Shown here in pieces: positions 40,884 to 59,785 of a stretch of DNA of 64,000 nucleotides. The position numbers were made by a program, and so were the translations under genes. The stretch is from Salinisphaera shabanensis E1L3A. Its GTDB lineage: Bacteria; Pseudomonadota; Gammaproteobacteria; Nevskiales; Salinisphaeraceae. The notes under the pieces are model-generated. The model saw nothing but the letters and a program-made list of their open reading frames with translations. It had not been told where the DNA came from and did no database searches. The stretch is taken from assembly GCF_000215955.2 (NCBI RefSeq), contig NZ_AFNV02000011.1, positions 62,001 to 126,000 of the forward strand, given 5' to 3'. The first letter of the stretch is position 1. Every line of letters starts with the position of its first letter.

Positions 40884-41192
40884 ATGACCACGCCGTGTTT
40901 TCGTTACCAATGGGATGCCGCCAAAGCGCTTGCCAATCGACGAAAACACGGCGTGAGTTTCGATGTCGCCGTAGGCGTTTTTCGTGACCCGCTGGCTCTG
41001 ACAATTGCCGATCCGGCGCACAGCGAAACCGAAGAGCGTTGGATTACACTCGGCGTTGTACCGGAAACAGGCTTGCTGGTCGTGGTTCATACCTGGGCCG
41101 AGTGGAGCGAAAACGAGATCGACGTACGCATGATCTCGGCTCGGCGCGCCAGCAGACGGGAACAACGCGACTACGAAGGTGGCGACCTATGA
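40884..41192 (+). CDS. brnT: BrnT family toxin
   Basis: A 102-residue RNase toxin of the BrnT family. Typical features: FRYQWDAAKALANRRKHGVSF, an acidic-aromatic middle region FRDPLALTIADPAHSETEERW, and C-terminal RMISARRASRREQRDYEGG. BrnT cleaves RNA and is neutralised by BrnA. It starts 9 bases after the nrdA stop, so it must be cotranscribed with nrdA, and overlaps brnA by 4 bases. Its place inside the ribonucleotide reductase operon is unusual. Confidence 0.9.
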   Translation: MTTPCFRYQWDAAKALANRRKHGVSFDVAVGVFRDPLALTIADPAHSETEERWITLGVVPETGLLVVVHTWAEWSENEIDVRMISARRASRREQRDYEGGDL

Positions 41193-41401
41193 AAGACGAA
41201 TACGATTTTTCGAACGGCGAACGCGGCAAATTCTATCGGCCCAACGCCTCGCACCATATTCCGTTGTATCTCGACAGTGATGTCATGGAGTTTTTGGCGA
41301 AACGTTCGCGCGATCAGGGTATTGAACCGCGCGAGCTAGCCAATCAAATGCTCAAGAAAGACATCGAGATCGTGCAGGCGGCGGAAAGAACATCCAAATA
41401 A
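41189..41401 (+). CDS. brnA: BrnA family antitoxin
   Basis: A 70-residue BrnA/CopG-like antitoxin. It begins [19 protein letters not shown], and the ribbon-helix-helix part is [19 protein letters not shown] then [15 protein letters not shown]. It overlaps brnT by 4 bases (ATGA). BrnA binds BrnT and represses the pair. The ORF is shorter than typical BrnA (~80-90 residues), missing part of the usual DIDTSDIPE-type lead, so its N-terminal arm may be trimmed. About 60 bases separate it from nrdB. Confidence 0.87.
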
Positions 41402-41462: not shown

Positions 41463-42662
41463 ATGCTCGACTTCGAAGACACACCCCGCCAAGGCACGCC
41501 CGAGCACAAGCCGGGCAGCACGGCCAACCCGAACCCGGCCGGCAACGCGCCCGATCCGTACGCGCTCGACAAGCAGCCCGAAAAAACCAACCAGTCCGGC
41601 GCGGAAGAAGCGGTCACCGGTCTGGAACAGGTCGAACTCGGCGCCGGCCGTGTCTCGGTCGACGAAAAGCGCATCATCAACTGCCGCGCCGACGTCAACC
41701 AGCTCGTGCCCTTCAAATACACCTGGGCCTGGGAAAAGTACCTCAACGCCTGCGCCAACCACTGGATGCCGCAGGAAGTGAGCATGTCCGCCGACATCGC
41801 CATGTGGCAGGACCCGGACGCCCTCACCGAAGACGAGCGCCTTATCCTCAAGCGCGGCTTCGGCTTCTTTGCCTCCAGCGAATCGCTGGTCGCCAATAAC
41901 ATCGTGCTGGGTGTGTACAAGCACCTCACCAACCCCGAATGCCGCCAGTACCTGCTGCGCCAGGCCTTCGAGGAAGCCGTGCACGGACATACCTTCCAGT
42001 ACATCGTGGAAAGCCTCAACCTCGACGAGGGCGAGATCTTCAACATGTACCGCGAGCTGCCCAGCGTGCACAACAAGGCCGCCTGGGCCATGCAGTACAC
42101 CCAGAGCCTGAACGACCCCAACTTCCAGACCGGCACCCACGAAAACGACCAGATCTTCCTGCGTGACCTGATCGCCTTCTACGTGATCTTCGAAGGCATC
42201 TGGTTCTATGCCGGCTTCGTGCAGTACCTGAGCTTCGGCCGCCGCAACAAGATGACCGGCACCGCCGAGCAGATGCAATACATCATGCGCGACGAGTCCA
42301 TGCACCTGAACTTCGGCATCGACGTGATCAACCAGATCAAGATCGAAAACCCGAACCTCTGGACGCAGGAATTCCAGGACGAAGCCCGTCGCATGATCGA
42401 CGAAGCCATGCACCTGGAAATCGAATACGCCCACGACACCATGCCCCGCGGCGTGCTCGGCCTGAACGCCAGCATGTTCGACGAATACATGAAGTTCATC
42501 GCCAACCGCCGCTGCTCCCAGATCGGCCTGGCCGAACTCTACCCCGGCGCGGAAAATCCGTTCCCGTGGATGAGCGAGATGATGGACCTCAAGAAGGAGA
42601 AGAACTTCTTTGAAACTCGGGTGATTGAGTATCAGTCGGGTGGGGCGTTGAGCTGGGATTAA
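41463..42662 (+). CDS. nrdB: ribonucleoside-diphosphate reductase beta subunit
   Basis: A 399-residue class Ia beta subunit that houses the di-iron centre and tyrosyl radical. Iron ligands and radical surroundings are recognisable in [51 protein letters not shown] and [16 protein letters not shown]. The C-terminus ([11 protein letters not shown]) is the tail that binds NrdA. The N-terminal ~45 residues are a flexible Pro/Gly-rich extension. It is the last conserved chromosomal gene before the accessory island begins. Confidence 0.95.
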
Positions 42663-42690
42663 GAGCTAAGCCAATAGTCAAGTTGCCGCC

Positions 42691-42918
42691 GTGTCTGCTA
42701 CCGATCGACTGAAAGAACAGATCGCCTACCTCAAGCTTTGGTTGGGCATTCTCGTTGTCACCGGTATCAGCATTGGCGGCTGGCTCGTTAGCAATTGGGA
42801 CGATTCCACGTGGCCGTTGCTGATGGGCGCTGTCGTTGGTTTGTTCTCGATTGCTGGCGGTTGCCGTGTACTCCACGCTAAGATCGAAGAGAAGATTAAC
42901 CAGCTCGAGGACTTGTAA
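42691..42918 (+). CDS. small two-helix membrane protein
   Basis: A 75-residue protein beginning with GTG at 42691. Two hydrophobic helices are visible: LKLWLGILVVTGISIGGWLV (residues ~14-33) and WPLLMGAVVGLFSIAGGCRVL (~40-60), followed by a charged coiled tail (AKIEEKINQLEDL). It begins 29 bases after nrdB and is followed 3 bases later by a 27-residue hydrophobic peptide ORF. Small membrane pairs of this style occur beside mobile and toxin-antitoxin genes, from memory. No function can be assigned. Confidence 0.62.
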   Translation: MSATDRLKEQIAYLKLWLGILVVTGISIGGWLVSNWDDSTWPLLMGAVVGLFSIAGGCRVLHAKIEEKINQLEDL

Positions 42919-42921
42919 GCC

Positions 42922-43005
42922 ATGGATATTTTGGTCGGATTGCTGATAGCTGGCGGCGCGGGTTTTCTCACGTATTTGGCAATTGACGCAGCGCGTCGGG
43001 CGTAA
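42922..43005 (+). CDS. candidate 27-residue single-helix membrane peptide
   Basis: ATG at 42922, stop at 43003-43005. The translation is almost all one membrane helix (ILVGLLIAGGAGFLTYLAI) with a short basic end (AARRA). It starts 3 bases after the stop of the small membrane protein at 42691-42918, suggesting they work together. Too short for family recognition; coding status is uncertain. Confidence 0.45.
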   Translation: MDILVGLLIAGGAGFLTYLAIDAARRA

Positions 43006-43010
43006 GCTGG

Positions 43011-43361
43011 CTATTTGGTCGCGGCGCAAGATGACGATGTTAGTCGTATCATCTCAGCGCGAATTCCAACATGCCATGAGCGAAAGCAATACCAAAAGGC
43101 GGATCTTCCGGCGACCAAGAACTTAACGAGCAGGTCCCCACGTCGGACGACGATATCGATACGCCGGATATCCCGAAATAATGGAGTCGCGCCGAGCGCG
43201 GCAAGTTTTATTTGCCAGGGTCGGCGCACAACGTAGTGCTGTATCTTGATCGTGACGTTGCGGCCTTTCCCGCTGAGCGAGCGTTCGCCCGTGGCGTCCC
43301 GTTACGCGCTTTGGCGAACGAGATGCTGAAGAAGGATATCGATATAGTGCGGTCTGTTTAG
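43011..43361 (+). pseudogene. decayed second BrnT/BrnA locus
   Basis: The remains of a toxin-antitoxin pair split over several frames. At 43030-43100 a frame reads SRIISARIPTCHERKQY, matching the BrnT C-terminal RIISAR...RE..Y pattern. Near 43140-43180 another frame gives SDDDIDTPDIP, the CopG/BrnA linker. From 43197 to the stop at 43361 a third frame reads RGKFYLPGSAHNVVLYLD and then ALANEMLKKDIDIV. The last part closely parallels the intact BrnA at 41189-41401. No intact start-to-stop frame exists, so it should be inactive. Confidence 0.75.
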
Positions 43362-43518
43362 TCTGCTCGAACTCGCAGTTTTGACCTAATGCGATACCTG
43401 ATCCTAAGCCGTCTGTAATACGGCTACCACCCGTACGCTGAGTTTCAGCGTTACGACCATGTGCACGAATCCGCGCGAGTTGATAACCTGGCGATTGTAC
43501 AGTCGGCTCGGGACACGA

Positions 43519-44493
43519 ATGGACTTTATCGATCTATACTGCGGCGCTGGTTTTGGCGCCAGAGGCGCTGTTGCCGGTGGTGGTGTCGCAAGACTCGCCG
43601 TCGACATATGGCAGGCCGCGACTGCCACTTATCAATGCAATTTCCCTGAAGCCCACGTCATCACCTCTAGCGTTGACGACGTGGAGCCAAGGCGATTCGA
43701 TCCGGCGCTTGGAGCGGATCTCCTTCTTACCTCTCCGGAGTGTACGTCCCACTCATTAGCCCGCGGGAATAGGCCGGCGGATGAAACTAGTCTTGAGACT
43801 GCTATCTCATTTATGCCTTGGGTCGACCATTTTAGGCCACGTTGGATTGTAATCGAGAATGTGGCTCGACTTCGCGCCTGGGACCGTTACGCTTCACTAT
43901 GCGACCAAGTGGCTCGGCGCGGTTACGAGGTTAGCGAGTGTCTCCTGAATGCCGCTGATTTCGGTGCGCCACAGGCGAGAAAGCGCTTATTTATGATATG
44001 CGGACGCGAGTCTTCGCCTCCAACAGTCGACGCTCTTTATCCCGTGCACGCGCCGCGTCGCACCGCTAGAGATATCGTTGATTCTGATGGGACATGGCGT
44101 ACTACGCCGCTTTATAGCAAACGCCGCGCTGAAGCTACGGTAGAGCGAGCCGAGCGAGCGATTGCGGAGCTGGGCCGCGGAGTACCGTTTTTGATTGTCT
44201 ATTACACGTCTGATCGAGCTGGAGGGTGGCAGTCGCTCGATCAGCCTCTCCGCACGATCACGACGGTGGATCGATTCGGTTTAGTAACCTGGGACGGCAA
44301 TGAACCCCGATTGAGAATGCTTCAGCCGCCCGAGTTATTGCGTGCTATGGGCGCGGATAGGCATCTGCTCGATGTCGGGTCCAGGCGGGATAAAGTAAAA
44401 CTTTGCGGTAACGGAATCTGCTCTCCGGTTATGCAGAGAATAGTCGAATGTCTTCGCGATATTGACAATCGAGTTGCGCGGGAGGCGGCCTAA
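43519..44493 (+). CDS. DNA (cytosine-5)-methyltransferase
   Basis: A 325-residue C5-cytosine methylase. Motif I is MDFIDLYCGAGFGARGA (SAM binding), motif IV is TSPECTSHS with catalytic Cys75 (SPEC instead of the common PPCQ), motif VI is VIENVARL, motif VIII is APQARKRLF, and motif X is KLCGNGICSPVMQRIV. The target-recognition region between VIII and IX is short, so the recognised sequence is probably short. I take ATG 43519; an upstream ATG at 43459 would add 20 unrelated residues. It converges with the receiver/GHKL pair. Base composition here is visibly less GC-rich than the chromosome, a sign of transfer. Confidence 0.87.
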   Translation: MDFIDLYCGAGFGARGAVAGGGVARLAVDIWQAATATYQCNFPEAHVITSSVDDVEPRRFDPALGADLLLTSPECTSHSLARGNRPADETSLETAISFMPWVDHFRPRWIVIENVARLRAWDRYASLCDQVARRGYEVSECLLNAADFGAPQARKRLFMICGRESSPPTVDALYPVHAPRRTARDIVDSDGTWRTTPLYSKRRAEATVERAERAIAELGRGVPFLIVYYTSDRAGGWQSLDQPLRTITTVDRFGLVTWDGNEPRLRMLQPPELLRAMGADRHLLDVGSRRDKVKLCGNGICSPVMQRIVECLRDIDNRVAREAA

Positions 44494-44653
44494 GCCGATG
44501 ACCGCTTCCCCGCCGCTCACATAGGCGATTCAAACCTTGCGCGATTATAGAATGTAAACCTACTCTTTTAGCTTTATTCTGGAAAGCGGCGGATAACTGC
44601 TTTGTTGGCTTTGGCGCATTCACTTGAAAAACCGAAAGTGCGGAACGGTCAAA

Positions 44654-45739
44654 CTAGGACTTCTTTGTTTTTTCTGTTCCAGTCCTTTTGGCAATAAGTT
44701 GTTTTGAAGCATCGTCGAGATCCGGCGTACCGAGTCGGGTGTAGTAATTGCCGAACGCGAGGCAAATTGACTCCCGAAATGGTTGATCGAGCTGACAAAT
44801 TGGCTCCATGAGGGGAAATTCTTCGTATTCAAACTGTTTAATTGCTTGAAAATCGACTATTAAATCTTGGATGAAGAAAGTCCCCGGGAGAAACTTATAC
44901 CTTGGCCCTTTATTGCCCGCAATAAACGCTGCCCTTTTATTCTGTTTGAACTCATCGACTGGATAGCAACGAATAGCGAGAACGCGATCGGCTTTTTTTC
45001 TAGCCAAATCACAGGCAGGCGTTACTACAAGCCATATCTCGTTTTGTCCCGAACTATAAATATTACCGGTGCTGACAACGCTCGGCTCGTCTAATGGGTA
45101 AATATAATACTCAATCGGTACGACGGTTGCCTGTGGATCCCCTGAATAATCCTTGATTGCTATCTTTGAAAGGCCAGAGGAGATGCGACGTGATAGCAAA
45201 TAAGCGAGCTCGTACGGGTGATCCGAACGTAAATCCTCACGGACATCGGCCCACTGCTTATAAATCGTATCCCATAGGTAAGCCCGCTGATATTCTTCGA
45301 CATGTCTAAGCAGGCGAGGTATACCCGTCTCGTGGATTTCACGTGCCGCCTGCCTCAGCTCTGTAGCCCCGTTTCCTTTAGTCACAACCTTAACGATCGG
45401 AGCTTGGACGTGTGTGAGTTTTGCAGTAAAACCGGAATAGAAGATGACCGGGACAAAATGCAAGTCCTGTAGTTGCTGGAGGAGCCTTTCGCCACTCTGG
45501 CTCTCGAGTCCAGGGTCGGACTCGGGTCGCGGATCTTCGCTGCCGTGTAGATCCAGGACCACGAGATCAAAGCGCTCTTGGGTAAGGCGCGTCAATGCAT
45601 GTCTGAAATCAGTTTCCCAAGTCGCGTCAATCCGACCATAAGGATTATCATCGTCCCAGGCTTCGAGTAATTCGGCAGCCTCTTCGGCCTTTTCTTTCTC
45701 GTCGTCTACGCACAACGCGCGCCACGGCTTATCCAACAT
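44654..45739 (-). CDS. response-regulator receiver protein with unknown C-terminal domain
   Basis: A 361-residue protein. Residues 1-130 form a receiver domain: acidic pair in CVDDE (Asp12-Asp13), phosphoacceptor Asp63 in DLVVLDLHG, Ser102 in VIFYSG and Lys near 117-121 in IVKVVTKG. An insertion of about 15 residues (DPRPESDPGLESQSGE) follows the Asp. The C-terminal 210 residues match no DNA-binding output I know. A phrase EIWLVVTPACDLARKKADRV (Cys243) stands out and may be functional. The gene starts 3 bases after the stop of the GHKL kinase gene, so the two are coupled. Confidence 0.72.
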   Translation of the reverse strand: MLDKPWRALCVDDEKEKAEEAAELLEAWDDDNPYGRIDATWETDFRHALTRLTQERFDLVVLDLHGSEDPRPESDPGLESQSGERLLQQLQDLHFVPVIFYSGFTAKLTHVQAPIVKVVTKGNGATELRQAAREIHETGIPRLLRHVEEYQRAYLWDTIYKQWADVREDLRSDHPYELAYLLSRRISSGLSKIAIKDYSGDPQATVVPIEYYIYPLDEPSVVSTGNIYSSGQNEIWLVVTPACDLARKKADRVLAIRCYPVDEFKQNKRAAFIAGNKGPRYKFLPGTFFIQDLIVDFQAIKQFEYEEFPLMEPICQLDQPFRESICLAFGNYYTRLGTPDLDDASKQLIAKRTGTEKTKKS

Positions 45740-45742
45740 TTT

Positions 45743-47983
45743 CTATACCCTTTTTCGCAGCGTTATCCGAAACGTCGCGCCTGGCAATGGCCCTTCGTCC
45801 ATGATTTCAAAAGCACCGTCGTAGAAGTCCTTGATGATTTCCCCGACGATTACGAGCCCGAGACCGACACCATCTTCTCTGGTGCTAAAGTAAGGCTGAA
45901 AGACGGCTTCGCGATCGTCGGACGCAATACCCGGCCCGCTATCGGAGAAGAGAATTTGGAGAACGCCCTCACCCGGACGACTGCAGGCCACTAGGATGGA
46001 ACGCCTTTCTCGTGGCACTTGGCGGAGCCAGTAAAGGCTGTTACTCAGAAGGTTGATAAATACTTCCTGAAGTTCCGATCGATCCACGGTAACCAGAAAG
46101 CTTTCAGTCGGTAGTTCGACTTCGACACCTAGCTGTGTCAATTCTGACCGGAAGTGTGAAAACGCTTCCTGGATGATCTGATCGATGTAGAGCTTGCTTG
46201 GCCGCCCTCGCTTACGCCCGCCCAGAGGTTCGACCCTGGAAATAACTTCATGCATCAGCTTGCCAGCATCCAGGATTCGATCGACCTTTTTGCTGGAATC
46301 ATCAATGGCTTTGATGCACTCTTCAGAAAGCTCGGCTTCCTTGCGTTTGAATTTGGTTATGCGTTCGCTGATCAAGGTTCCTTGCGCGTTTATCGTGGAT
46401 AACGGCTGTCTGGCTTCGTGGACGATCTTGTCGACAAGCTGCCCTAGCGTGGCGAGAGAGTGATACTGAGCGAGGACCTTACCAATACGATCCACCTGTT
46501 GTTTCCACTCACGCGCCTTTTGATCCACAAGCTCGATGGTTTTTTTAGACGCGCCATCTTGTTTGAGTTCGCTCCGCAGGTCGCCCATTTCAGGCGGCGC
46601 AAGGAGAGCGTCACGAGTAGTGTCGTTCCGTGGATCCTTGGGTTTTTTCTTTGCCTCATTGCGGACGCGCTCTAGCTCGGAAAGGATCGCCAGCATGATC
46701 GAAGAGAGGTCCTCGAAGGCTTTATTATCGGTCAGTCCTTCCCGGTTGCTTTGATCGTACAGATCAGGGTTTTCGTCTGCGCCGATTCGAACCACACCTA
46801 CGATCTGATTGTTCGAAAACTTTTTGGATGGGGTGTTGACCCGGCGCATGTCTAGCCTTAGCCAATCGTTATCCTGCTCGCCGTAGGGAAGCACCCGGAA
46901 TCCGTCCCGATAAATGCTTATGCCTGATACAGACTTTACGTCAGCTCGAATCGATCGAATTCCGACACCGAGTTTCTGCTTCGTGCCTTCGAGATCGTCT
47001 AGGTCCCAGGCCTTGATTTCGATTGCCAGCGGCCCGCAAGCAGGTTTGCATGTGCCGGCAAGGTCCTGCCGCATAGGAATATCGCGGATCGCCATATCCG
47101 CGTCAGGAACCTGTCTGTACCAACCGTTTTTTGTCCGCTCTCCGCCTGTTCCAAAAACTTGTATATGTAGCGTAAAAGCGCCATCAGCGTCTATGGTTGC
47201 TTCAGCTGAGTAGTGTGGATACTTTAGCGCCTCCGGCGGCGATACTTCCTGTTTGACGGGCTCTCCCTTTCCCGAAGTCTCCAGGAAGATTCGGAAATCT
47301 TCGCTTTGTCCTGCCGGGGAAACAAGTCGACTAAGAGCGTGTCCGAGTTGCTCGAGATCTTTCGGTCGCCATGATCGCTTCAAGGGCGACATTCGCAGCA
47401 GCGTACCGTGGGAGCCGTCGCGTGGCAGCTGATGCTGATCGCTATTAGCTGGGGCTGGGGCACTCGAGGCTGTGAAGAATGCCGGCTCCCGTTCCTCGGC
47501 TAGTAGTATTACCTCGTCGAGAAAGAGCGAATCGTTGTCGAACTGAGTCCAATCAAAGTAAGCGTAGGTTTCATTGGGAGAGTCAACGGGGCGCGTAATG
47601 AGTTCGAGTTCCGAAGCAAGCCGCGCGGACGCGAAACGCCCGACGCCTTTTTCCCCTAGAACGCGTCGATTGAGAAATGAGCTGCGCGTGTTTTTCTTTT
47701 TAGTCGCAGTACCTGGTTCCATCCAGGCGGAACGAACGGTACCCAGGTTCATGCCAACGCCGTCATCCTCTATCTCGATGCAACTAGTATTCTTTTCGAG
47801 TTCGCCCTTGAAACGAACTGCGACGCAGCTGGCGTCTGCGTCGTAGGCATTTTTGACTAGTTCAAGAATCGCAACCTGCTCGCTGCTGATCAGATCCTCA
47901 CCAAGAGCGCGTATGATGCGTGCTCGGGGTCTGAGCGGTTTGCCGTGTTGTTTGTAAGACTCGTCATTGGATTGGTAGGCCAT
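45743..47983 (-). CDS. dual-GHKL protein: MORC/Hsp90-like ATPase fused to histidine kinase
   Basis: A 746-residue protein (ATG at 47983; the frame is open to 48031). Residues 20-120 hold a GHKL ATPase: ELVKNAYDADA (Asn45), IEDDGVGM (73-78) and GEKGVGRFASARLA. Residues 330-430 carry the transducer-like ISIYRDGFRVLPYGEQDNDWL and DQSNREGLTDN, as in prokaryotic MORC/MutL-like ATPases. From ~490 a histidine kinase follows: VHEARQPLSTI with His522, NLLSNSLYWL (Asn648), DSGPGI and DGVGLGL. No membrane segment exists, so sensing is cytoplasmic. Its partner is the receiver protein immediately downstream. Confidence 0.8.
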   Translation of the reverse strand: MAYQSNDESYKQHGKPLRPRARIIRALGEDLISSEQVAILELVKNAYDADASCVAVRFKGELEKNTSCIEIEDDGVGMNLGTVRSAWMEPGTATKKKNTRSSFLNRRVLGEKGVGRFASARLASELELITRPVDSPNETYAYFDWTQFDNDSLFLDEVILLAEEREPAFFTASSAPAPANSDQHQLPRDGSHGTLLRMSPLKRSWRPKDLEQLGHALSRLVSPAGQSEDFRIFLETSGKGEPVKQEVSPPEALKYPHYSAEATIDADGAFTLHIQVFGTGGERTKNGWYRQVPDADMAIRDIPMRQDLAGTCKPACGPLAIEIKAWDLDDLEGTKQKLGVGIRSIRADVKSVSGISIYRDGFRVLPYGEQDNDWLRLDMRRVNTPSKKFSNNQIVGVVRIGADENPDLYDQSNREGLTDNKAFEDLSSIMLAILSELERVRNEAKKKPKDPRNDTTRDALLAPPEMGDLRSELKQDGASKKTIELVDQKAREWKQQVDRIGKVLAQYHSLATLGQLVDKIVHEARQPLSTINAQGTLISERITKFKRKEAELSEECIKAIDDSSKKVDRILDAGKLMHEVISRVEPLGGRKRGRPSKLYIDQIIQEAFSHFRSELTQLGVEVELPTESFLVTVDRSELQEVFINLLSNSLYWLRQVPRERRSILVACSRPGEGVLQILFSDSGPGIASDDREAVFQPYFSTREDGVGLGLVIVGEIIKDFYDGAFEIMDEGPLPGATFRITLRKRV

Positions 47984-48147
47984 CGTTATCTCACGAGTCC
48001 ATAGTCGGACTATTCTCTCGCTTTGCACCATATCTGGCGAAGCAGAACGCCACCAGCAATTGTCGGGGCATATGCCGACCTCCTTTTCGATCGTATTTTC
48101 AGCCTACCGTTGTTAAGCGGCGAAACGCTAGCGCTGTTGCGATTTAC

Positions 48148-48663
48148 TTAGCCAAACCATGTTGCGTCCGAGGGGTGGGGGCGCCGCGACAAGCTATTAG
48201 GGCGAGGGCGCATATGCTTAGGCGGTTTAGCTGGCCACGTTGACGACGACTCATCTCCTACAATCAAGGCGGGGAGCTCTCGCAATTCTTCTAATTGGTG
48301 TCGGAGTCCGCATTCCCAGATTACAAAAACGCGCCACCCGTTTTGAAGAAGTCGTTCAATACTCCGCTGATCGCGATGCACATTGCCTTCGAACTTTCTT
48401 TGCCAAAAATCGGTTCTTGTGGCGGGGACCGTCGCGTAATGGCATCCGGGGTGTCGATGCCAGAAACAGCCATGTACGAATATGACTAATCGGTATTTGG
48501 GTAGCACGATATCTGGTCGTCCTGGCAGATCCTTTCGGTGAAGACGAAACCTAAAGCCGCACGCATGCAGATAACGTCGAACCTGCAGCTCCGGTTTAGT
48601 ATCGCGACCCTTAATCCGCGACATCATGGACGACCGTTTACATGGATTTACTATGTCATTCAT
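48148..48663 (-). CDS. vsr: very short patch repair (Vsr) endonuclease
   Basis: A 171-residue Vsr homologue. The N-terminus has SSMMSRIKGRDTKPELQVRR; the catalytic region has DLPGRPDIVLPKYRLVIFVHG then CFWHRHPGCHYATVP, with the zinc-binding Cys/His set; further on, FWQRKFEGNVHRDQ and VFVIWECGL. Vsr nicks next to T:G mismatches made when 5-methylcytosine deaminates, so it is the natural partner of the methylase at 43519. It lies upstream of the GHKL kinase gene with a 164-base gap on the same strand. Confidence 0.92.
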   Translation of the reverse strand: MNDIVNPCKRSSMMSRIKGRDTKPELQVRRYLHACGFRFRLHRKDLPGRPDIVLPKYRLVIFVHGCFWHRHPGCHYATVPATRTDFWQRKFEGNVHRDQRSIERLLQNGWRVFVIWECGLRHQLEELRELPALIVGDESSSTWPAKPPKHMRPRPNSLSRRPHPSDATWFG

Positions 48664-49107
48664 TGCGGTGGTGCGGGGACGGTATGGAGAGGCTCCGGCT
48701 ATTTCGGACAGTTAAATCAGGGGTTAACGGCTAGCTTACGTTCGCATCGCTCCCGAGATTGGCAGCTCAGCGATTGGTGCAGTCGCTGTCGGCTATAAAA
48801 AAACCTCGACGTGGTCGAAGATCGAAGATTTAGCCTGCGATGGCGACTCAACCTGCTGCCCCAGATCATTCATTCTTCAGCGTACTTGAGAAGCATTCGG
48901 CACCGCACTATCCCAGCAGCTGCCCTTGCGGCTCATGCTCGGCGTGATCTCTCGTCGGACCACATAACCACGATACGCGTGGCCGCGAGGACGACGCCTA
49001 TTCATCAGAGGTTCTCGCGCGTTAGCTGATGCAGTGTCCGCCGTTAATCGCTTGGTGATATCCCAAGCTACATCGGCACGGTCGCGGATGAGATTCTGCG
49101 TCGGCCC
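48664..49107. other. intergenic region between vsr and the methionine-synthase-like gene
   Basis: About 440 bases. It contains a good minus-strand terminator at 48797-48820 and, between it and vsr, the probable vsr promoter region. The rest (48830-49100) has only short open frames without family features. Confidence 0.45.
48797..48820 (-). terminator. intrinsic terminator, minus strand
   Basis: On the minus strand a CTTCGA / TCGAGG stem with a CCACG loop is followed directly by seven T. It stands 288 bases after the stop of the methionine-synthase-like gene and before vsr, so it insulates the two transcripts. Confidence 0.65.
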
Positions 49108-50710: not shown

Positions 50711-52642
50711 ATGGACGACCAGCCTGATCGCCTACTCAAGGCGTATTTCGGTTACGAGCGTTTTCAACCCGGCCAGCGTGAAGTGATCGAGCACTTGTTG
50801 GCTGGCCGTTCTGCGGCGGCGGTATTTCCTACCGGCGGCGGTAAATCGCTGTGCTATCAACTGCCGGCATTGGCGTTGCCGGGTATCACGTTAGTGGTGT
50901 CGCCGTTGATCGCGTTGATGAAGGATCAGATCGATGCGTTGAGCGCCCGTGGCATCGCTGCACAGCGGCTGGATTCGAGCCTCGATGCCGAGGGTTACCG
51001 TGCTGTGATGGATCGCCTGCGCTCGGGCGAGTTGCGTCTTTTGTATGTGGCGCCAGAGCGTTTCAACAACGAACGCTTTCGGCAAACGCTGAGCCAATTA
51101 CGCGTATCGCTGTTTGCGGTGGACGAGGCGCATTGCATCTCGGAATGGGGGCACAATTTCCGCCCCGACTATCTCAAGCTGGTGGGTTTCGCCAAGGCGG
51201 CCAAGGCCGAGCGCCTGTTGGCGCTGACCGCGACCGCCACGCCGGCCGTGCTGGACGACATTTGCCAGGTACTCGATATCGGCGCCGACTGTGCCGTGCG
51301 TACAGCTTTTTATCGTCCCAATCTGACGCTGCTGTTCGCGCCGACCACCGTGGAACAGCGCGACCATGATCTGCTGGCGCGTCTGAATGAGCGGTCGGCG
51401 GGGCCGACGATCGTTTATGTAACCCTTCAGCGGACCGCAGAGCAGGTGGCGAAGCAGCTGGCTGATGCAGGCCATCCAGCACGGGCCTACCACGCCGGGA
51501 TGGACAGCGAGAAGCGCAGCGTGGTGCAGGAATGGTTCGTGCGTTCCAACGACGGCATTGTGGTGGCAACGATCGCGTTCGGCATGGGCATCGACAAGGC
51601 CGACATCCGCTACGTCTACCACTACAACTTGCCCAAGAGCCTGGAAAACTACGCCCAGGAAATCGGCCGTGCCGGGCGCGACGGCGAGAATGCGGTGTGC
51701 GAGATGCTGGCTTGCGCCGACGACCAGAACACACTGGAAAATTTCGTTTATGGCGATACGCCCACGGCGGCTGCGATCGATTCGTTCCTGCACGACATCT
51801 TCGCGCAGGAAGCGGAATTCGATATCAGCCTATCGGCGCTATCCCGCATGCATGATCTGCGTGAACTGGTCGCGCGCACGCTGCTGACTTATCTCGAGTT
51901 GCAGGGCTACCTGAAGGGCGGCACGCCTTTTTACGCCAGTTACCGATTCCGGCCGAAGATGGCGTCGCAGGACATACTGGCCCGTTTCCAGGGGCCCCGC
52001 CGACAGTTCCTGGCCGAGTTGCTACGCAGGGCGCGCAAGGCCCGGACCTGGTTTGACCTGGATGTAGATAGCGCGGTCGCCGAGATGCAGCAGCCGCGCG
52101 AGCGCATCGTGGCGGCGCTGGATTATCTGGGCGAGCAGCATATGCTGGAAGTCACCGCGGCCGGCGTGCGTCATCGCTACCGGATTCTGCAGCGCCCCGA
52201 CAGCGTGAAGGCATTGGCCGCCAAACTTTACGAGCACGCGCTACGCCGCGAGGAGAGCGAGTTGGCGCGCTTGCAGCAAGTGCTTGCGCTCATCGAAGCG
52301 GATGGCTGCCAAGTGGCGGCCTTGAGTGCGCACTTCGGCGAACAGCGCGAGCCCTGCGGCCACTGCTCCTGGTGCTTGAATGATGGCAAACCGGTGCGCA
52401 TCCCGGCCCGTCGCAAAACCGAGATCGATCCGGCCGTGTGGGCCGAGATGGAGACGCTGCGACGACAACACCCGAATGTATTGGGCCCGGCACGTGTCGT
52501 GGCGCGCTTTTTGTGTGGCGTTTCATCGCCGTCGCTATCCAAGGCGAAACTTACGCGCCATACCCTGTTTGGCCGCCTGGCTGATGTACCGTTCGCGGCA
52601 GTGGAAAAGCACGCTCAGGATTCTGCACCGCCGACAGCGTGA
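50711..52642 (+). CDS. recQ: ATP-dependent DNA helicase RecQ
   Basis: A 643-residue superfamily 2 helicase with all main motifs: AVFPTGGGKSLCYQLPAL (Walker A), VSPLIALMKDQI, VDEAHCISEWGHNFRPDY (DEAH box), ALTATATP and YAQEIGRAGRDGE. The RecQ-specific zinc-binding domain ends in PCGHCSWCLNDGK near residue 550. The C-terminal HRDC domain seen in E. coli RecQ is not evident; the last ~80 residues are different. It unwinds DNA in recombination repair. In this defence-rich setting it may belong to the island, though recQ can also be a core gene. Confidence 0.92.
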   Translation: MDDQPDRLLKAYFGYERFQPGQREVIEHLLAGRSAAAVFPTGGGKSLCYQLPALALPGITLVVSPLIALMKDQIDALSARGIAAQRLDSSLDAEGYRAVMDRLRSGELRLLYVAPERFNNERFRQTLSQLRVSLFAVDEAHCISEWGHNFRPDYLKLVGFAKAAKAERLLALTATATPAVLDDICQVLDIGADCAVRTAFYRPNLTLLFAPTTVEQRDHDLLARLNERSAGPTIVYVTLQRTAEQVAKQLADAGHPARAYHAGMDSEKRSVVQEWFVRSNDGIVVATIAFGMGIDKADIRYVYHYNLPKSLENYAQEIGRAGRDGENAVCEMLACADDQNTLENFVYGDTPTAAAIDSFLHDIFAQEAEFDISLSALSRMHDLRELVARTLLTYLELQGYLKGGTPFYASYRFRPKMASQDILARFQGPRRQFLAELLRRARKARTWFDLDVDSAVAEMQQPRERIVAALDYLGEQHMLEVTAAGVRHRYRILQRPDSVKALAAKLYEHALRREESELARLQQVLALIEADGCQVAALSAHFGEQREPCGHCSWCLNDGKPVRIPARRKTEIDPAVWAEMETLRRQHPNVLGPARVVARFLCGVSSPSLSKAKLTRHTLFGRLADVPFAAVEKHAQDSAPPTA

Positions 52643-52996: not shown

Positions 52997-54202
52997 TCAG
53001 CGTTCGTAGAGGTCGTCGATGTGAGCCAGTGCCTCCAGCAACCAGCGCTGGGCGATATGCTCCTGCTCCAGGCGTAGCGCGGGCGCACGGTGATCGTCGC
53101 GGAGTGCCTGGAACAGCGCGGCTTCGTCTTCCGTCAGGTGGTCCAGTAGCCCGGTGAAGCGCTTGTCCGCAGCCTCCTGGCCCCAGACCGGTCGGTGCGC
53201 CTCGAGCGTGGCCTGGTCCATCAGCAGTGAGCGGGCGTGCGGAAAAGCGCGACGGAAGCGGTTCAGGATGGCGAAGCCGTGGGTGTCGATATCGCCCCAG
53301 TAGTAGAGGCGTTTGTCAGCCAGCCAGGGGAGACGGCGCAGCGCCTCGACCCGATAGCCCAGGCCGAAGATCACCAGCGCGTTGGGGAATGCCGGAAACG
53401 CCAGGCCGTTGATTTCGTTTTCGGTGATGAAGACGGTATTCGCCCCCACGTCCAGGCGGGCGAGCTGCGCCACCGGCAGCGCCAGGTCGGTGAGCCCCTG
53501 AATCGCCAGCCGCTCGTCCAGCAGCCGCAAACGCAATCGCGGCGGCTTGTCGCGTAACCCGTAGCGGCGGTTGAAGCCGCGGACCCCGGTGGCACCTGTA
53601 TCGATAGCGCCGGCTGGCAGGACGGCGTCGAGCAGTTCGGCGAGCAGGCCGCGATGGGTCTCGATGAACTTGGTGTGAATGCCCGGGATGTCCAGTTCGC
53701 GCAGGTAGACGCCGGGTCGCGGATGGGCCTGGAACCAGGCCAGCACGGCGAGCAGGTCGTCCCAGTGTGGCGCGTGTTCGAGCGCACGCAGCGGGCGCTG
53801 ACGCAGCCAGTCGCGCAAGGCGGGGAAGGGCGTCAGGGTGCGCTCGGCGAGGCGGGTAAAGCGTGCCGCATCGTCACGATGGCCGAGCCAGCGCAGGGCG
53901 TCGTCTTCCGTATCCACGGTGATGACGTCGGGCAAGTCGTTGGCGCCCTGCACCCGGTGGCGGCGCTGTCGCCAGTGCACCGTGTAGCCAAAGCCTTTGC
54001 TGTCTTTCGCGCCCTCGCGCAGGGTGCGCACCCAGTCGGCGACATCCGCGAAGCGTTCGGTGAGATCCCGGGCGCTGGGCTTGCGCAGTCGCAGAGTCAC
54101 GGGGAACAGCGCATCGCCGTCCAGGCGCGCGCGCAGGATGTCGCCGCGCCGCCAGTACTTGTCCAGCTGCTGTTTCAGGTCGGCCGGTGACGTCCAGTTC
54201 AT
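52997..54202 (-). CDS. jetD: Wadjet system nuclease subunit JetD
   Basis: A 401-residue protein with an N-terminal DUF3322-like part and a C-terminal toprim-type DUF2220 domain. The toprim acids are Glu261/Glu263 in [14 protein letters not shown] and Asp304/Asp306 in [18 protein letters not shown]. In Wadjet systems JetD cuts circular plasmid DNA after the SMC motor has extruded it (family knowledge). It overlaps jetC by 4 bases and is the last gene of the jetABCD operon. All expected catalytic residues are present. Confidence 0.93.
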
Positions 54203-57200
54203 GGCTGCATACGAATCCGTTCACGGGCGGTTTTTTCCGCCTGGTACTCCTCAATGCTGAGATTGCGCAACAGAGATTCGCGGCCCTCGCGGTTGTGCAC
54301 GAAACCGACGCTGTGCACATAGGGCTCGATGATGTGAATCTTCTGCAGCGGGGTGACGATCAAGAGTTGCAGATTTAACCGCTTGAACAGCTCCAGCCCG
54401 TAGCGGGCGGATTCGTCGGAACCGCGGCCGAAGGCCTCGTCGATGACCACGAAGCGGAATGAGCGTGAGCGCTGCTCGCCCCATTCCAGGCCGAACTGGT
54501 AGGCGAGACTGGCGGCGAGCACGGTGTAGGCCAGCTTCTCCTTCTGGCCGCCGGATTTGCCGCCGGAATCGGAATAGTGCTCGTATTCGCGGTCGTCCTC
54601 GCGCCAGCGTTCCGAGGCGGAAAACACGAACCAGTTGCGCACGTCGGTTACTTTCTGGGTCCAGCGCTTGTCCAGCTCGCCGGTGCCCTCGCGGCCGCGG
54701 AAGCGTTCGATGATGCGTTTCACCTGCAGGAATTTCTGCTCGGTGTACTGTTCTTCCTCGTTGCCGCTGAGGGCGCCCTCGGTACAGGCACGCAACTCCT
54801 GCTGGAAGTCGCGTACTTCCTGGTCGCCGGTGGGTTCCGCCAGCAGGGTGATGTAGCGGCCCGGGTTGTAGTCGATGCCTTTGAGCGAACGGTTGATGAT
54901 GGCGATACGCTCGCGGATCGCCTGGCGTTCCTTGTGTAGCTGGCCCTGAAACGCTGCCACCTCGCGGATGGTGTTCTCGTTGAGCAGCTCCTTGAAACGG
55001 CGTTCGAAGCGCGGCAGGTCGTCGCGCTGCAACGCGTCCAGCATGGCGCGGTATTCGCCGCCGGCGGCCAGGGTGGCATCCACCTCGCGGCTTTCCAGCG
55101 GGAATGCGTGCTGGTGGCGCTGCATGGCGCTGACGATGCGCTCGCTTAGTGCCTTGAGCTGCTTGTCATGCTGGTCGATCTGCTTTTGCAGCCAGTCGCG
55201 CAGTTCGCTTTGCTGGTTGTCGCAGGATTCCACTGTCAGCGTGCGCCCGGCCAGCGCTTCTTCGCGGTAGCCCGCGAGGGTCTCGAAGCAGGCGCGCTGG
55301 GCCTCGTCGGCTTCGGCGAGCAGGGCGGCGCTTTCCTCGCGCTGGGCGGTGGCGGTTTCGGTCTTGGTGCGGTTGGCGCCTTCGTCCTGGCCCAGGGCTG
55401 ACCGCGCCTCCTCGGTTTCGTTGAGACTGCCTTCGAGTGTCTTGAGCTGGCTTTCCAGCTCCCGCAGTAGATCGTTGGCGGCCTCCAGAGCCAGGCGCTC
55501 GTTTTCCAACTGCTCCAGTTGCCGAGCTAACGGCTTCCAATCCAGCTCCTCGAAGTCGCCGAACATGGCCAGTTGGCCCAGCATGCCCAGGGCATCTTCC
55601 AAGCCCTTGCGCTCGTTTTCCCAGCCCTGGATGTGCTTGGCGAGCTCCCGACCGCGCCGGGCCAGGGATTCGGCCTCCGCTTCCAGGGCACGAATCTTGG
55701 CCTGGTTGTCCCATCCCAGCACGTAGCGGCTGGCGTCGTCGATGCGGTGACGGTCGTCTTTCTCGTGGCGCCCGCCCGGCGCCTTGATCTGCCCTGTGCG
55801 GGTGATGGCGCGCTGCTCCCGGCGGAAGCGGGTCATATCCTCGCAACAGACGTAATCGAAACGCCGTACCAATTCCCGCTCCAGCCACGGGTAAAAAGCG
55901 CTGTCCGGCTGGATGCGCAGCTTGTGCACCAGCGACTCCGGCGCCGCCGATGACACCGCGCCACGCGAGTCGCGGACCCGGAAGTACACCAGCCTGCCGC
56001 GCAGATGCGTGCGGTCGACCCAGTCGGCGACTCGCTCGTACAAGGCGTCCGGCACCAACAGTGACAGGCCGAAGTTGTGCAGCAGACGCTCGATGGCACC
56101 TTCCCAGTCGCGCTCCTCGGCGGGGACCTGCAGCAACTCACCGACGAAGGGGACATCGTCTTCGTCGAGTTGCAATGCGGCGCACAAAGCCTCGCGAATC
56201 GCCAGCACGCGACCTGGGATATTGGAGCGCCGTTGGCGCAGTGAGGCGAGCTCGGTTTCCAGCTCGCCGTGCTGCCCATTCAGGGCATGCAGTTTGGCGC
56301 CGGCTTCGTTGATGTGGTTCTGCAGCTGGGCTCGCTGTTCCTGCAACGCTTCCTGGCGCTTTTCGCGCTGGCGGCGGTTGTCGACGAAGATATCAAGCGT
56401 ATCGGCGTCGGGCAGCGACAGCGCCCGGGTCAGTTCGCGGTATTGTTGCGCCTTGTGCTGGCGATGCTGTTTTTGCCGCTGACAGTCCTGTATCTCCGTT
56501 TTCAATCGTTGCAGCCGGTCGCCGCCGTTGTCGGCGATGGACTGGCGCAGCTCGTCGCGGCGCGCCTGCTGATCGCGGCGCTGGCCATCCAGGGCGGAGC
56601 GCCGCTGGGCCAGGCGTTGCGCTTCGACGGCCAGATTCTCCAAGCGCTTGTCCAGCAAATCCATTTTCAAACTGGCGTACCAGGGCCGCAATGCCTCGCG
56701 GCTTTGCCGCAGGTCCGCCACCTGCCGTTCACGCTCGTCGTGACGGTCCAGATCGGCTACCAGTGGTTCGAGCATCTCGATGCGCAGGCGCGCCTTGAGC
56801 ACCGCCTCGTGGGCGCGGTTGAGATCGTCGAAGTGGCGGATCAACGCTTCGATGCGCTCGCCCACCGGGAACGGCTCCAGCATATGATCGCGCACGAAGC
56901 GGGTGATGTTATCCACCGACTTCATGGAGACGGTCTGGTTGAACAGCTCCATGGCCTGTTCATTGTCGATTCCAAAACGGCGGCGAAAGGCGGCGCCGTA
57001 AGCGGGGAAAGCGTCGAACACTTCGACGCCGGTTTGTTTTCTCAAACGCTTTTTCAGGTCGGCGATATCGCTGCCGAAATCGGCGAAGTCACCGGCCAGG
57101 GTGAGTGCGCGGTCGGCTACCATGTAGAAACGCTCCGGCTGGCCGGCGCTGTCCTTGATCCAGAACACCTGGGCCAGCGTCACGTCCTGATCGTAACCGG

Positions 57201-57582
57201 CATTGTGGAAGTGGCCGAGAATCACCGAGTAGCTGTTGTGATCGCGCAGTGCCACGGCCTTGGCAGAGAGCCCGGCCTCACCGCGCTCGGCCTTGTAGTA
57301 GCCTAGAACGTAAGAGCGCAGCGAGCGCTCCTTGCTCTCGGCACCGGCGGCCTTGTTGTAGGTGATTCGCTGCGCCGGCACCAGCAGGGTGGTAACCGCG
57401 TCCACCAGGGTGGACTTTCCCGAGCCGATATCGCCGGTGAGTAGGCTGTTGTCGCCCCGCGGATCCAGCGCCCAAACCTGGCGGTCGAAGGTGCCCCAGT
57501 TGAACACCTCCAGCCGTTGTAGGCGAAAGCCGGCCTGCTCGTTGGAATCCGCGAAATCCAATCCCAGCGTCTCATTGTGCAT
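54199..57582 (-). CDS. jetC: Wadjet system SMC-like ATPase JetC
   Basis: A 1127-residue MukB-like SMC ATPase. Walker A is GDIGSGKST (residues 50-58), followed by a long coiled-coil. The C-terminal head has the signature [16 protein letters not shown] and Walker [19 protein letters not shown] choose ATG 57582, 7 bases after GGAG; an ATG 6 bases upstream is possible. It overlaps the end of jetB by 11 bases. The motor extrudes plasmid loops so that small circles are recognised. An intact ATPase suggests a working system. Confidence 0.93.
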
Positions 57583-58162
57583 CGGCATGCTCCCGATATT
57601 CCTGGAGGCGCTGTTCGAACTCCCCGAGCCATTGGGCGTCGACGAACGACTGCAGGATGCGGCGCACTTCATAGCGGTCGTTCTGTCCGCGCAGCCGCCG
57701 CAGAAAGCCCAGTTCGATCACCTTGTTGATATCGCCCTGCACGCGATCCACCAGTTTCGCCTCGTTGGCGGTGTCTGGTAGGAACAGCCGCACCAGTTCC
57801 ACGATCTGCGCCTGGGTCAGAATGAGGCGCGGGTCGCCGCCGCTGGCGTCGTGCTCGGCGAGCTTCTTGCGCAGCAGCGCCAGCAACAGGCTGACCGGAT
57901 AGGAGAGCTGGCGGCGCGGCACCAGCCGCGGCGGGCCCTGCTCGTCGTCGCCGCGCGCCGTTTGGCGCAGGTAGGCGTAGCCTTCGGCCTCGTCCAGCAC
58001 CAGTTCCAGGCCCAGCACCGTGACGTAATCGCGAACCCGGCCCTGAAGCGTCAGCAGGGATTGCCACAGCGCTTCCTGCTGGTCGCGATAGAGCACGCCC
58101 TTGAGCAGGCGAATCAACAGGGGCGACAGATCGGAGGCGGTATCGATATCACTTTCACTCAT
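57572..58162 (-). CDS. jetB: Wadjet system MukE-like subunit JetB
   Basis: A 196-residue DUF4194 protein (start at ATG 58162; the longer frame to 58216 overlaps jetA). It is helical with two winged-helix-like parts, such as [21 protein letters not shown] and [21 protein letters not shown]. JetB binds the kleisin JetA to form the non-SMC part of the complex. It lies 4 bases after jetA and overlaps jetC by 11 bases, so all four jet genes are translated together. Confidence 0.9.
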
Positions 58163-58166
58163 GCAA

Positions 58167-59603
58167 TCACCGGCTGAACAGCACATCGGGAACGGTGGCG
58201 CGGCGCACCATGCCATGATCGTCGCGCCAGCTCACCTCACACTCGCCGGCCTCGTCGATCAACGCGCTTGGATCGTCGGCGGCCAGCGCCAGCCAAGTCA
58301 CCAGTTCCGCCAGGCCGCGTTCCAGGGGACTGTGCTCCAGCAACGCCGCCAGGCTGATCTGGTCACGGTTCTGCAGCGCCTGCTGCAGTCGCGAGCGCAG
58401 TGCCGCTCGGTCCACGTAAAACTGGTCGAACAAAGCGCCGGCATCCAGATCGGCGTCGCCGGTGGCCAGCTCGTTCTGCTCAATGCGCGGCTTCAACGGC
58501 GGCCGGTACAGGGGCCGCTCCAGGGGCAGCGTTACCGACGGCGCCAACTCGTCCACCGTCATGCCCGGTGCCTGGGCCGGTGCCTCGCGCACTGCGAGGG
58601 CGTGCCGCTCCACCTTGTGCACCAACTGCATAATGCGGCGATTCTCCAGCCAGGCCTGATCGTCGAGATAGCGTCGCAACTGCTCGGAAAGTCGCGCCAC
58701 GGTACGCAACGTCGCCTCGCCGGCCTCCAGCCAATCGTAATGCACCCGCTGTAGGCGCGGATCGGGTTCCAGCTCGCGCACCGGGTCCAGTGCCATCACC
58801 CGCTCCAGCAGCGTGGACAACTCTTCCTGGCGACTCGGCGACATCAAAAAATCCCAGAACGCACGAAAGGTGCGCCCCTGATCGGTGTCGGTAATGGCAT
58901 CGTGTTCGCCGAACACCTGCGCCAGCATATCGCCCTTGCTCCCGTCCCAGGCCGCCACTGTTTCACGCACCTGGCGATCCAGATCGCGAAAGTTCTGCTC
59001 CACCTGCCGGAAATCCGCCAGCAGGCCCCGGGCGGTGTCCGACATCTGCAAAAAGCGTTCTCGCAGCCGGGTGTCGTCCATCATCCGCAGGCGGCCCTCT
59101 TGGATCTCCTCGATCTCCCGCTCGATAGCTTCTTTACGCCGGGTCAGTTCTTCAATGCGCGCCTTTGGATCGGTCTCGGTGCCCTCGGTGATCTCGCGCA
59201 GCAGCTCGAAGACCGTCAGCAACCGCGACTCCGCGCCGATAAAACGCTGCCCCTGCAGCGACACCAACCACTGCACCGCTTTCTCTGTGGCCGGCGCCAG
59301 ATCGTAATGGGGCTCGTCGCTGTCGCGCGGGTAATACTTGCGCAGCCACCCGCGTTCGTCCGCCGCCCAGTCGTTGAGATACTGACGCGCCGGCTTGGGA
59401 AAGGCGTCATCTCCCAACCGCTCGCGCAGATGGAAAAGAAAATCCTCCAGTCGCGATGCCAGCTCGGCCTCGGCGAAAGTCCGCTGGTTCGGCTCAATGA
59501 AATAGCGATGCAGAAACGCCGCCACCAGTGGCCCATGGTCGGCGGCCAGCAGCCGCCAGCCCGGGTGCTGACGGCGCAAGGTGGTAAGAAAGTCGTAGTC
59601 CAT
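58167..59603 (-). CDS. jetA: Wadjet system kleisin-like subunit JetA
   Basis: A 478-residue DUF3375 protein, the MukF-like kleisin of Wadjet. It begins MDYDFLTTLRRQHPGWRLLA, then FLHRYFIEPNQRTFAEAELA, both typical of DUF3375. A coiled segment around residues 170-200 (KARIEELTRRKEAIEREIEE) is a likely bridging helix. Start at ATG 59603; upstream in-frame ATGs (to 59675) lack homology. It heads the operon; no -35/-10 is obvious upstream. Confidence 0.92.
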   Translation of the reverse strand: MDYDFLTTLRRQHPGWRLLAADHGPLVAAFLHRYFIEPNQRTFAEAELASRLEDFLFHLRERLGDDAFPKPARQYLNDWAADERGWLRKYYPRDSDEPHYDLAPATEKAVQWLVSLQGQRFIGAESRLLTVFELLREITEGTETDPKARIEELTRRKEAIEREIEEIQEGRLRMMDDTRLRERFLQMSDTARGLLADFRQVEQNFRDLDRQVRETVAAWDGSKGDMLAQVFGEHDAITDTDQGRTFRAFWDFLMSPSRQEELSTLLERVMALDPVRELEPDPRLQRVHYDWLEAGEATLRTVARLSEQLRRYLDDQAWLENRRIMQLVHKVERHALAVREAPAQAPGMTVDELAPSVTLPLERPLYRPPLKPRIEQNELATGDADLDAGALFDQFYVDRAALRSRLQQALQNRDQISLAALLEHSPLERGLAELVTWLALAADDPSALIDEAGECEVSWRDDHGMVRRATVPDVLFSR

Positions 59604-59785
59604 ATTGATATTAAGGCGAACGCTGTGACCGCGGATTCGAACACGAGTGTTGCCAAATGGCGGGTGGGACATCAAGCGTGGGTTCGCCTGCCGAATTCGA
59701 CGTCATCGCGCTAGTGCCTGCGGCCGTGCGTCCGACGTGACAAGGATCGACCCCGTCGGCGCGCTTGGCGCCAAAAATACGGTGT

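Follow-up and report, generated by a model that had tools for sequence, protein, structure and literature searches.

A C5 methylase, a dual-GHKL histidine kinase, a receiver protein with a predicted toxin fold and Vsr form a candidate defence locus in Salinisphaera shabanensis

The locus and its genes

The genome of Salinisphaera shabanensis E1L3A carries, in a stretch of 64,000 nucleotides (contig NZ_AFNV02000011.1, positions 62,001 to 126,000; this whole stretch is called the window, and positions are its own unless labelled otherwise), four genes for a C5 cytosine DNA methyltransferase, a receiver protein, a histidine kinase with two GHKL ATPase domains and a Vsr mismatch endonuclease. These four intact open reading frames (ORFs) lie between nrdB and a metE-like gene in a low-GC segment of about 6.3 kb (42661-48972), of which the GC content is 51-59% in 2-kb steps versus 60-66% in most other steps of the window. 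The methylase (43519..44493, plus strand, 324 aa, with its ORF open from 43459) is the sole PF00145 match in its genome (9.4e-32). It also matches the PADLOC model DrmMII (5e-80) and in this respect resembles class 2 DISARM, although DrmA, DrmB, DrmC and DrmE were not recognised among the four proteins. It converges on three genes of the minus strand: those for the receiver protein P0001 (44654..45739, 361 aa), the kinase P0002 (45743..48031, 762 aa, for which homologues suggest a possible inner start near 47983) and Vsr (48148..48663, 171 aa; TIGR00632 5.7e-44, PF03852 2.6e-32), which has D51, H64 and H69 at positions presumably matching the numbering of E. coli Vsr. Domain, PADLOC and profile searches recognised no restriction endonuclease among the four proteins, and on this ground the idea of such an enzyme hidden in the segment was rejected. 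The initial annotation, made from the sequence before any search, had described this gene arrangement, the dual-GHKL kinase beside a receiver and the lack of a recognisable restriction endonuclease, and on all these points it was right.

In the kinase, domain searches find an N-terminal GHKL domain of the HATPase_c_3 type (residues 50-166, 47534..47884), a HisKA domain with the phospho-acceptor H538 (residues 529-588, 46268..46447) and a C-terminal HATPase_c domain (residues 650-760, 45752..46084), all on the minus strand. The nearest PDB sequences to the N-terminal domain are all weak matches (MORC4 0.087, MutL 0.18, a heat shock protein 0.23). H538 is kept in all 76 kinases compared, and the ATP-site residues checked are kept in 75-76 of them. 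In the receiver domain (residues 1-139, 45323..45739, minus strand), the phospho-acceptor D63 and T/S102 are found in 70 of 70 members, D13 in 68, and K121 in 47, with R in 18 others. Judged from these residues, the His and Asp phospho-acceptors, the ATP site and the receiver T/S and K of two-component systems are all in place.

The C-terminal domain of the receiver protein

The full-length receiver protein was modelled by AlphaFold2 (AF2) with a predicted local distance difference test (pLDDT) score of 88.4. Because fold searches with the full-length model were filled by receiver-containing chains, the C-terminal part (residues 172-345, 44705..45226, minus strand) was modelled alone (pLDDT 88.3), and its best structural matches in Foldseek and VIA-align, over residues of about 220-335, are the toxins MazF, CcdB and Kid. 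Thus, the domain is predicted to have a MazF/CcdB fold, which supports the earlier suggestion that this uncharacterised part of the receiver protein is the likely effector. No DNA-cutting enzyme appears by title among the 50 PDB rows listed for it. The domain holds a P-x-C-D motif at residues 241-244, of which C243 and D244 are present in 70 of 70 members and P241 in 69; the invariant C-D pair could be an active site.

The likeness to the MazF/PemK/Kid/CcdB superfamily lies in the fold, as seen on the predicted model only. In contrast to these toxins, the domain is fused to a receiver, has no recognised antitoxin gene beside it, has its own invariant C-D pair and gives no significant sequence-profile match. 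When the domain was compared by hhalign, locally and globally, with a PemK alignment that we had assembled from 20 ORFs, no significance was reached (probability 0.1%), and PemK_toxin is neither among the 25 Pfam families listed, of 26 found, for 39 receiver proteins of the window's clade in the kinase tree described below nor among all 21 families for 31 receivers of the other clade, clade A. The catalytic Arg/Thr pair of MazF is not apparent in the alignments, and when PDB sequences were searched with the alignment of the C-terminal part, four matches came up (best 0.075), none of them a toxin. In a viral structure library, PemK-like phage proteins match the domain (best E 2.0e-3), and phrog_4575 of PHROG matches 15 of 58 members (4.5e-7), while tblastn searches of phages with P0001 and with two members gave no match. 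PADLOC PDC-M60 matches (0.017 and 0.041) were set aside as they cover the receiver region only. In the open-licence literature searched, no protein that combines a receiver with a MazF fold was found described. As a separate observation, L174:2002-3219 (+) encodes a 405-aa protein that carries the tail of the effector domain, with no kinase or methylase recognised nearby.

Co-occurrence and distribution

How often do these genes stand together in other genomes? A kinase-pattern scan of a genome collection gave at least 558 confirmed matches, of which the 80 best were kept, and a quick kinase tree, which has long branches and leaves 20 forks open, divided the rows into clade A (35), clade B (43, including the window, whose sister is L057 from Rhodanobacter) and 16 others. 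These 16 (L090, L094, L095, L097, L099, L103, L104, L105, L109, L111, L117, L124, L132, L139, L140 and L141) were dropped from the counts, as were L007, which nearly duplicates L009, L100, in which the kinase is truncated, and L138 and L142, which have no kinase above the bit threshold. From the 77 loci of clades A and B thus analysed, 30 with less than 4 kb on a side were removed, leaving 47 with the window included. In these, a receiver gene adjoins the kinase in 45, and within 4 kb there is a C5 methylase in 42 and a Vsr gene in 19. The methylase was not used to find the 80 loci, though it is present in nine of the ten seed loci; on a chance scale of one C5 methylase per 3.76 Mb, about 0.3% of random genes would have one within 4 kb by our own arithmetic. 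The gene set is not a chance grouping. The view that the four genes make one functional locus would have fallen if kinase/receiver and methylase/Vsr pairs were dissociated in other genomes; this was looked for, and the association was found instead.

The module spans many bacterial phyla and archaea in its two diverged clades. Hosts among the 80 best matches include Rhodanobacter, Vreelandella, Cupriavidus, Streptomyces, Chloroflexota and Bacteroidota, together with the archaea Methanoregula, Methanoperedens and a Thaumarchaeon. The loci L012, L013 and L014 hold all four genes, with identities to the window of 56-57% for the methylase, 43-48% for Vsr, 28-29% for the kinase and 22-24% for the receiver protein; some other loci consist of methylase, kinase and receiver only. 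No single restriction enzyme recurs across the related loci, neighbours having been scanned as ORFs of up to 700 aa, with 25 of 151 families listed. A 922-aa ORF at L088:4020-6788 (+), in which kinase and receiver are joined, was considered as a Rosetta stone and rejected as a deletion or assembly chimera, because the join runs in frame from within the kinase domain, at position 673 of 721 of the profile, to position 83 of 377, in the middle of the receiver.

Relation to the HEF_HK/Response_reg_2 pairs

Two-component-like HEF_HK/Response_reg_2 elements (PF19191/PF19192) with C5 methylase and Vsr neighbours have been described computationally (Bellieny-Rabelo et al., 2021, PMC8011034). The locus in the window shares with them a C5 methylase, a GHKL kinase with N-terminal HATPase_c_3, a receiver-type partner and a Vsr neighbour; their kinases are remotely homologous to ours (7.6e-61 and 5.9e-59 against the A3 profile), and kinase/receiver adjacency with a C5 methylase nearby is likewise the rule in loci of the window's type (45 and 42 of 47). 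In the copies inspected, however, the kinase has 993-1003 aa and the regulator about 540-720 aa, compared with 762 and 361 aa in the window. PF19192 does not match P0001, which gives only Response_reg at E<=1, nor anything else in the window's genome; it is absent from the same sets of 25 (of 26) and all 21 families considered above for PemK_toxin. PF19191 does not match P0002 at E<=1 and is absent from the 25 families listed, of 40, for 42 kinases of the window's clade. In a sample of 398 genomes, PF19192 marks ten and a profile of our C-terminal domain strongly marks four, with no overlap, and two (G304 and G442) of the three weak matches of the latter are PF19192 regulators. In four PF19192-type loci inspected, a C5 methylase stands beside the 993-1003-aa kinase in every case. 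Of 12 regulators found with PF19192, ten of them in the 398 genomes, six, or about half, have a P/A-x-C-D motif at the matching place, sharing the motif of the putative effector. The highest score among 3400 shuffled proteins was 12.8 bits, which seven of the 12 exceed, while five score 1.5-12.3 bits.

From these comparisons of sequences, we place the locus as a diverged new branch of the HEF_HK/Response_reg_2 kind, with the predicted toxin-fold output domain as its new element. The initial annotation had regarded it as an under-described system; this stands only in part, as a sister system has been in print since 2021, while the accessible portion of that paper names no output domain or other known domain in the regulator that partners HEF_HK (PMC8011034). 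The receiver with a predicted MazF/CcdB-fold domain thus offers a concrete and testable effector for sister pairs described without one.

The same authors suggest that the pair regulates restriction-modification (PMC8011034). A similar role might be supposed here: the kinase and receiver would adjust how strongly the methylase, and any restriction enzyme nearby, is expressed or how active it is, and the toxin-fold domain would do no more than bind nucleic acid or protein. Two-component logic agrees with this, various kinds of restriction genes are found near some loci, and the active-site residues of MazF are not apparent. However, the segment in the window has no restriction enzyme to regulate, loci of methylase, kinase and receiver only do exist, the predicted output domain is structurally closest to toxins and not to DNA-binding regulators, and its invariant C-D pair could be an active site. 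We consider a purely regulatory role rather unlikely. As an observation on the restriction genes themselves, an AspBHI-type enzyme lies near the module in L057 (RE_AspBHI_N and Mrr_cat), L064, L065 and L093, all of the window's clade; enzymes of this type are often modification-dependent.

Vsr and the question of a restriction complex

Vsr repairs damage arising from C5 methylation. It had been put forward as one of two candidate effectors, and this did not hold: there is none within 4 kb in 28 of the 47 loci. An HhH-GPD glycosylase is near six of the 47, five of them without Vsr (12 loci in the neighbour clustering, e.g., L067:7233-7949 +), and either Vsr or this glycosylase is found in 24 of the 42 methylase loci. 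In our reading, both serve to repair 5-methylcytosine that has been deaminated, and the HhH-GPD protein may replace Vsr as a T:G glycosylase. Methylase and Vsr together recall type II restriction-modification of the EcoRII/Dcm type, and EcoRII does stand beside the pair in L055, although the segment in the window has no recognised restriction endonuclease.

MORC/paraMORC GHKL ATPases are known from restriction-modification loci, where, as here, methylase and Vsr-type genes are neighbours (Iyer et al., 2008, PMC2292703). Unlike them, the ATPase in the window is fused to a histidine-kinase core and has a receiver partner, and neither 'receiver' nor 'two-component' appears as a word in the text of that paper. 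Can kinase, receiver and methylase be a modification-sensitive restriction complex, in which the DNA is surveyed by the MORC-like ATPase and cut by either the C-terminal domain or a recruited Vsr? Besides the precedent of GHKL ATPases in such loci, the N-terminus of the kinase is similar to BbrUII/HgiDII restriction enzymes (7.6e-18), and genes annotated as metallo-beta-lactamase (MBL)-fold or HNH stand beside two versions of the locus with an adenine methylase. Against it are the structural matches of the C-terminal domain, none a DNA-cutting enzyme by title, and the many loci without Vsr. Such a complex seems to us distinctly unlikely.

Genomic setting

The site between nrdB and the metE-like gene seems to be used repeatedly. 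In the same-genus genome G665 (locus L177), blastn aligns both flanks, at 93.8% and 90.6% identity, and the alignments break at 42660 and 48973 of the window, which defines the variable segment with the four genes (42661..48972); the site is filled there by an 806-aa protein (L177:1690-4110 +) in which SIR2_2 (4.1e-23) is combined with a STAND NTPase domain (2.5e-17). G171 is 95% identical on the nrdB side, after which a different 367-aa ORF without clear Pfam match follows. Because these two genomes carry other genes there, the site exchanges cargo and is, on the sequences compared, a hotspot. A complete Wadjet system (JetD, JetC, JetB and JetA; 52997-59675, minus strand) lies 4.3 kb from the locus. 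Wadjet is an anti-plasmid system. This neighbour and the SIR2/STAND gene suggest defence, in line with the setting initially supposed.

A search with the receiver protein gave matches in five of 273 other gammaproteobacterial genomes, and none of full length in the 16 other genomes of the family. A further search was 'positive' in 279 of 398 genomes, and this count was discarded, as nearly all listed matches are to the receiver domain only; almost full-length matches occur only in the window's genome and three others (of 397 other Pseudomonadota), the same three that have the C-terminal domain. The L008 pair has no E. coli relative at the DNA level. On plasmids, the protein is found in 34 records, 33 of them from Campylobacter and 33 typed as conjugative; in both Campylobacter records inspected, the kinase/receiver pair converges on a dcm gene in the same layout as in the window, and in the single Enterobacter record, the stretch inspected contains the pair but no methylase. 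These plasmid relatives, and the mosaic distribution with no full-length match in the family, favour an addiction element, a module that mainly punishes its own loss, with the effector firing as methylation fades and little antiviral role. The site shared with a SIR2/STAND gene and the nearby Wadjet point instead to defence, and we hold mere addiction to be very unlikely; the two readings are not mutually exclusive.

A possible mechanism

We propose that the locus is a phosphorelay, coupled to DNA methylation, through which a toxin-fold effector is released and the cell is arrested instead of DNA being cut; the grounds for belief and for doubt are about balanced. The C5 methylase would mark the cell's own DNA, and Vsr would mend T:G mismatches left by deamination of 5-methylcytosine. 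The kinase would unite a MORC/MutL-type GHKL ATPase module, as the sensor, with its complete histidine-kinase core. If target sites without the mark appear, on invading DNA or after loss of the methylase, the kinase would autophosphorylate on H538, and the phosphate would pass to D63 of the receiver protein. This phosphorylation may free or rearrange the MazF/CcdB-fold domain, which would then arrest the cell, and the invader fails; the toxin-fold domain would thus stand in for a restriction enzyme. What the comparisons show is the gene set with its linkage and conservation, the conserved residues of the phosphorelay and ATP site, the fold of the predicted model and the defence setting, whereas the signal, the direction of control and the toxicity are inferred; the phosphate might be activating or inhibiting, and the target might be RNA, gyrase or another molecule.

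More generally, methylation status may be read by a MORC-like ATPase wired to a phosphorelay with toxin-fold output, that is, restriction-modification in which phosphate-gated arrest replaces the nuclease, though here doubt slightly outweighs support. It would explain loci of C5 methylase and Vsr that have no restriction enzyme and would offer a bacterial setting where the reader of DNA methylation may be a MORC-like ATPase. To our knowledge, two-component signalling has rarely been linked to immunity. One published figure legend names HATPase and REC among the domains that occur in predicted defence systems (PMC13092281).

Variant loci and neighbouring genes

Among the kinase loci outside clades A and B, L139, L140 and L141 have an adenine methylase. 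In L140 and L141, a short receiver-type partner is followed by the genes annotated as MBL-fold or HNH, and in L139, a 409-aa partner matches the toxin-fold profile. In another sub-group (L105, L111, L117 and L132), a HerA-like 544-aa ATPase precedes the kinase in all four, and three of them encode a 358-aa protein that has no Pfam match. A methylase 48.7% identical to that of the window (L142:5986-6963 +) lies without kinase on a plasmid of Thalassospira, where its neighbours are defence genes of the MZA type. In the window itself, the DrmA match of a helicase (50711-52642) spans 86 residues only (1e-9), and a BrnT/BrnA-like toxin-antitoxin pair precedes nrdB (40884-41401, plus strand), its first ORF matching the 'toxin' chain 7vd7 (5.8e-16); these names, and that of a degenerate second BrnA-like copy near 43150-43360, were assigned by eye.
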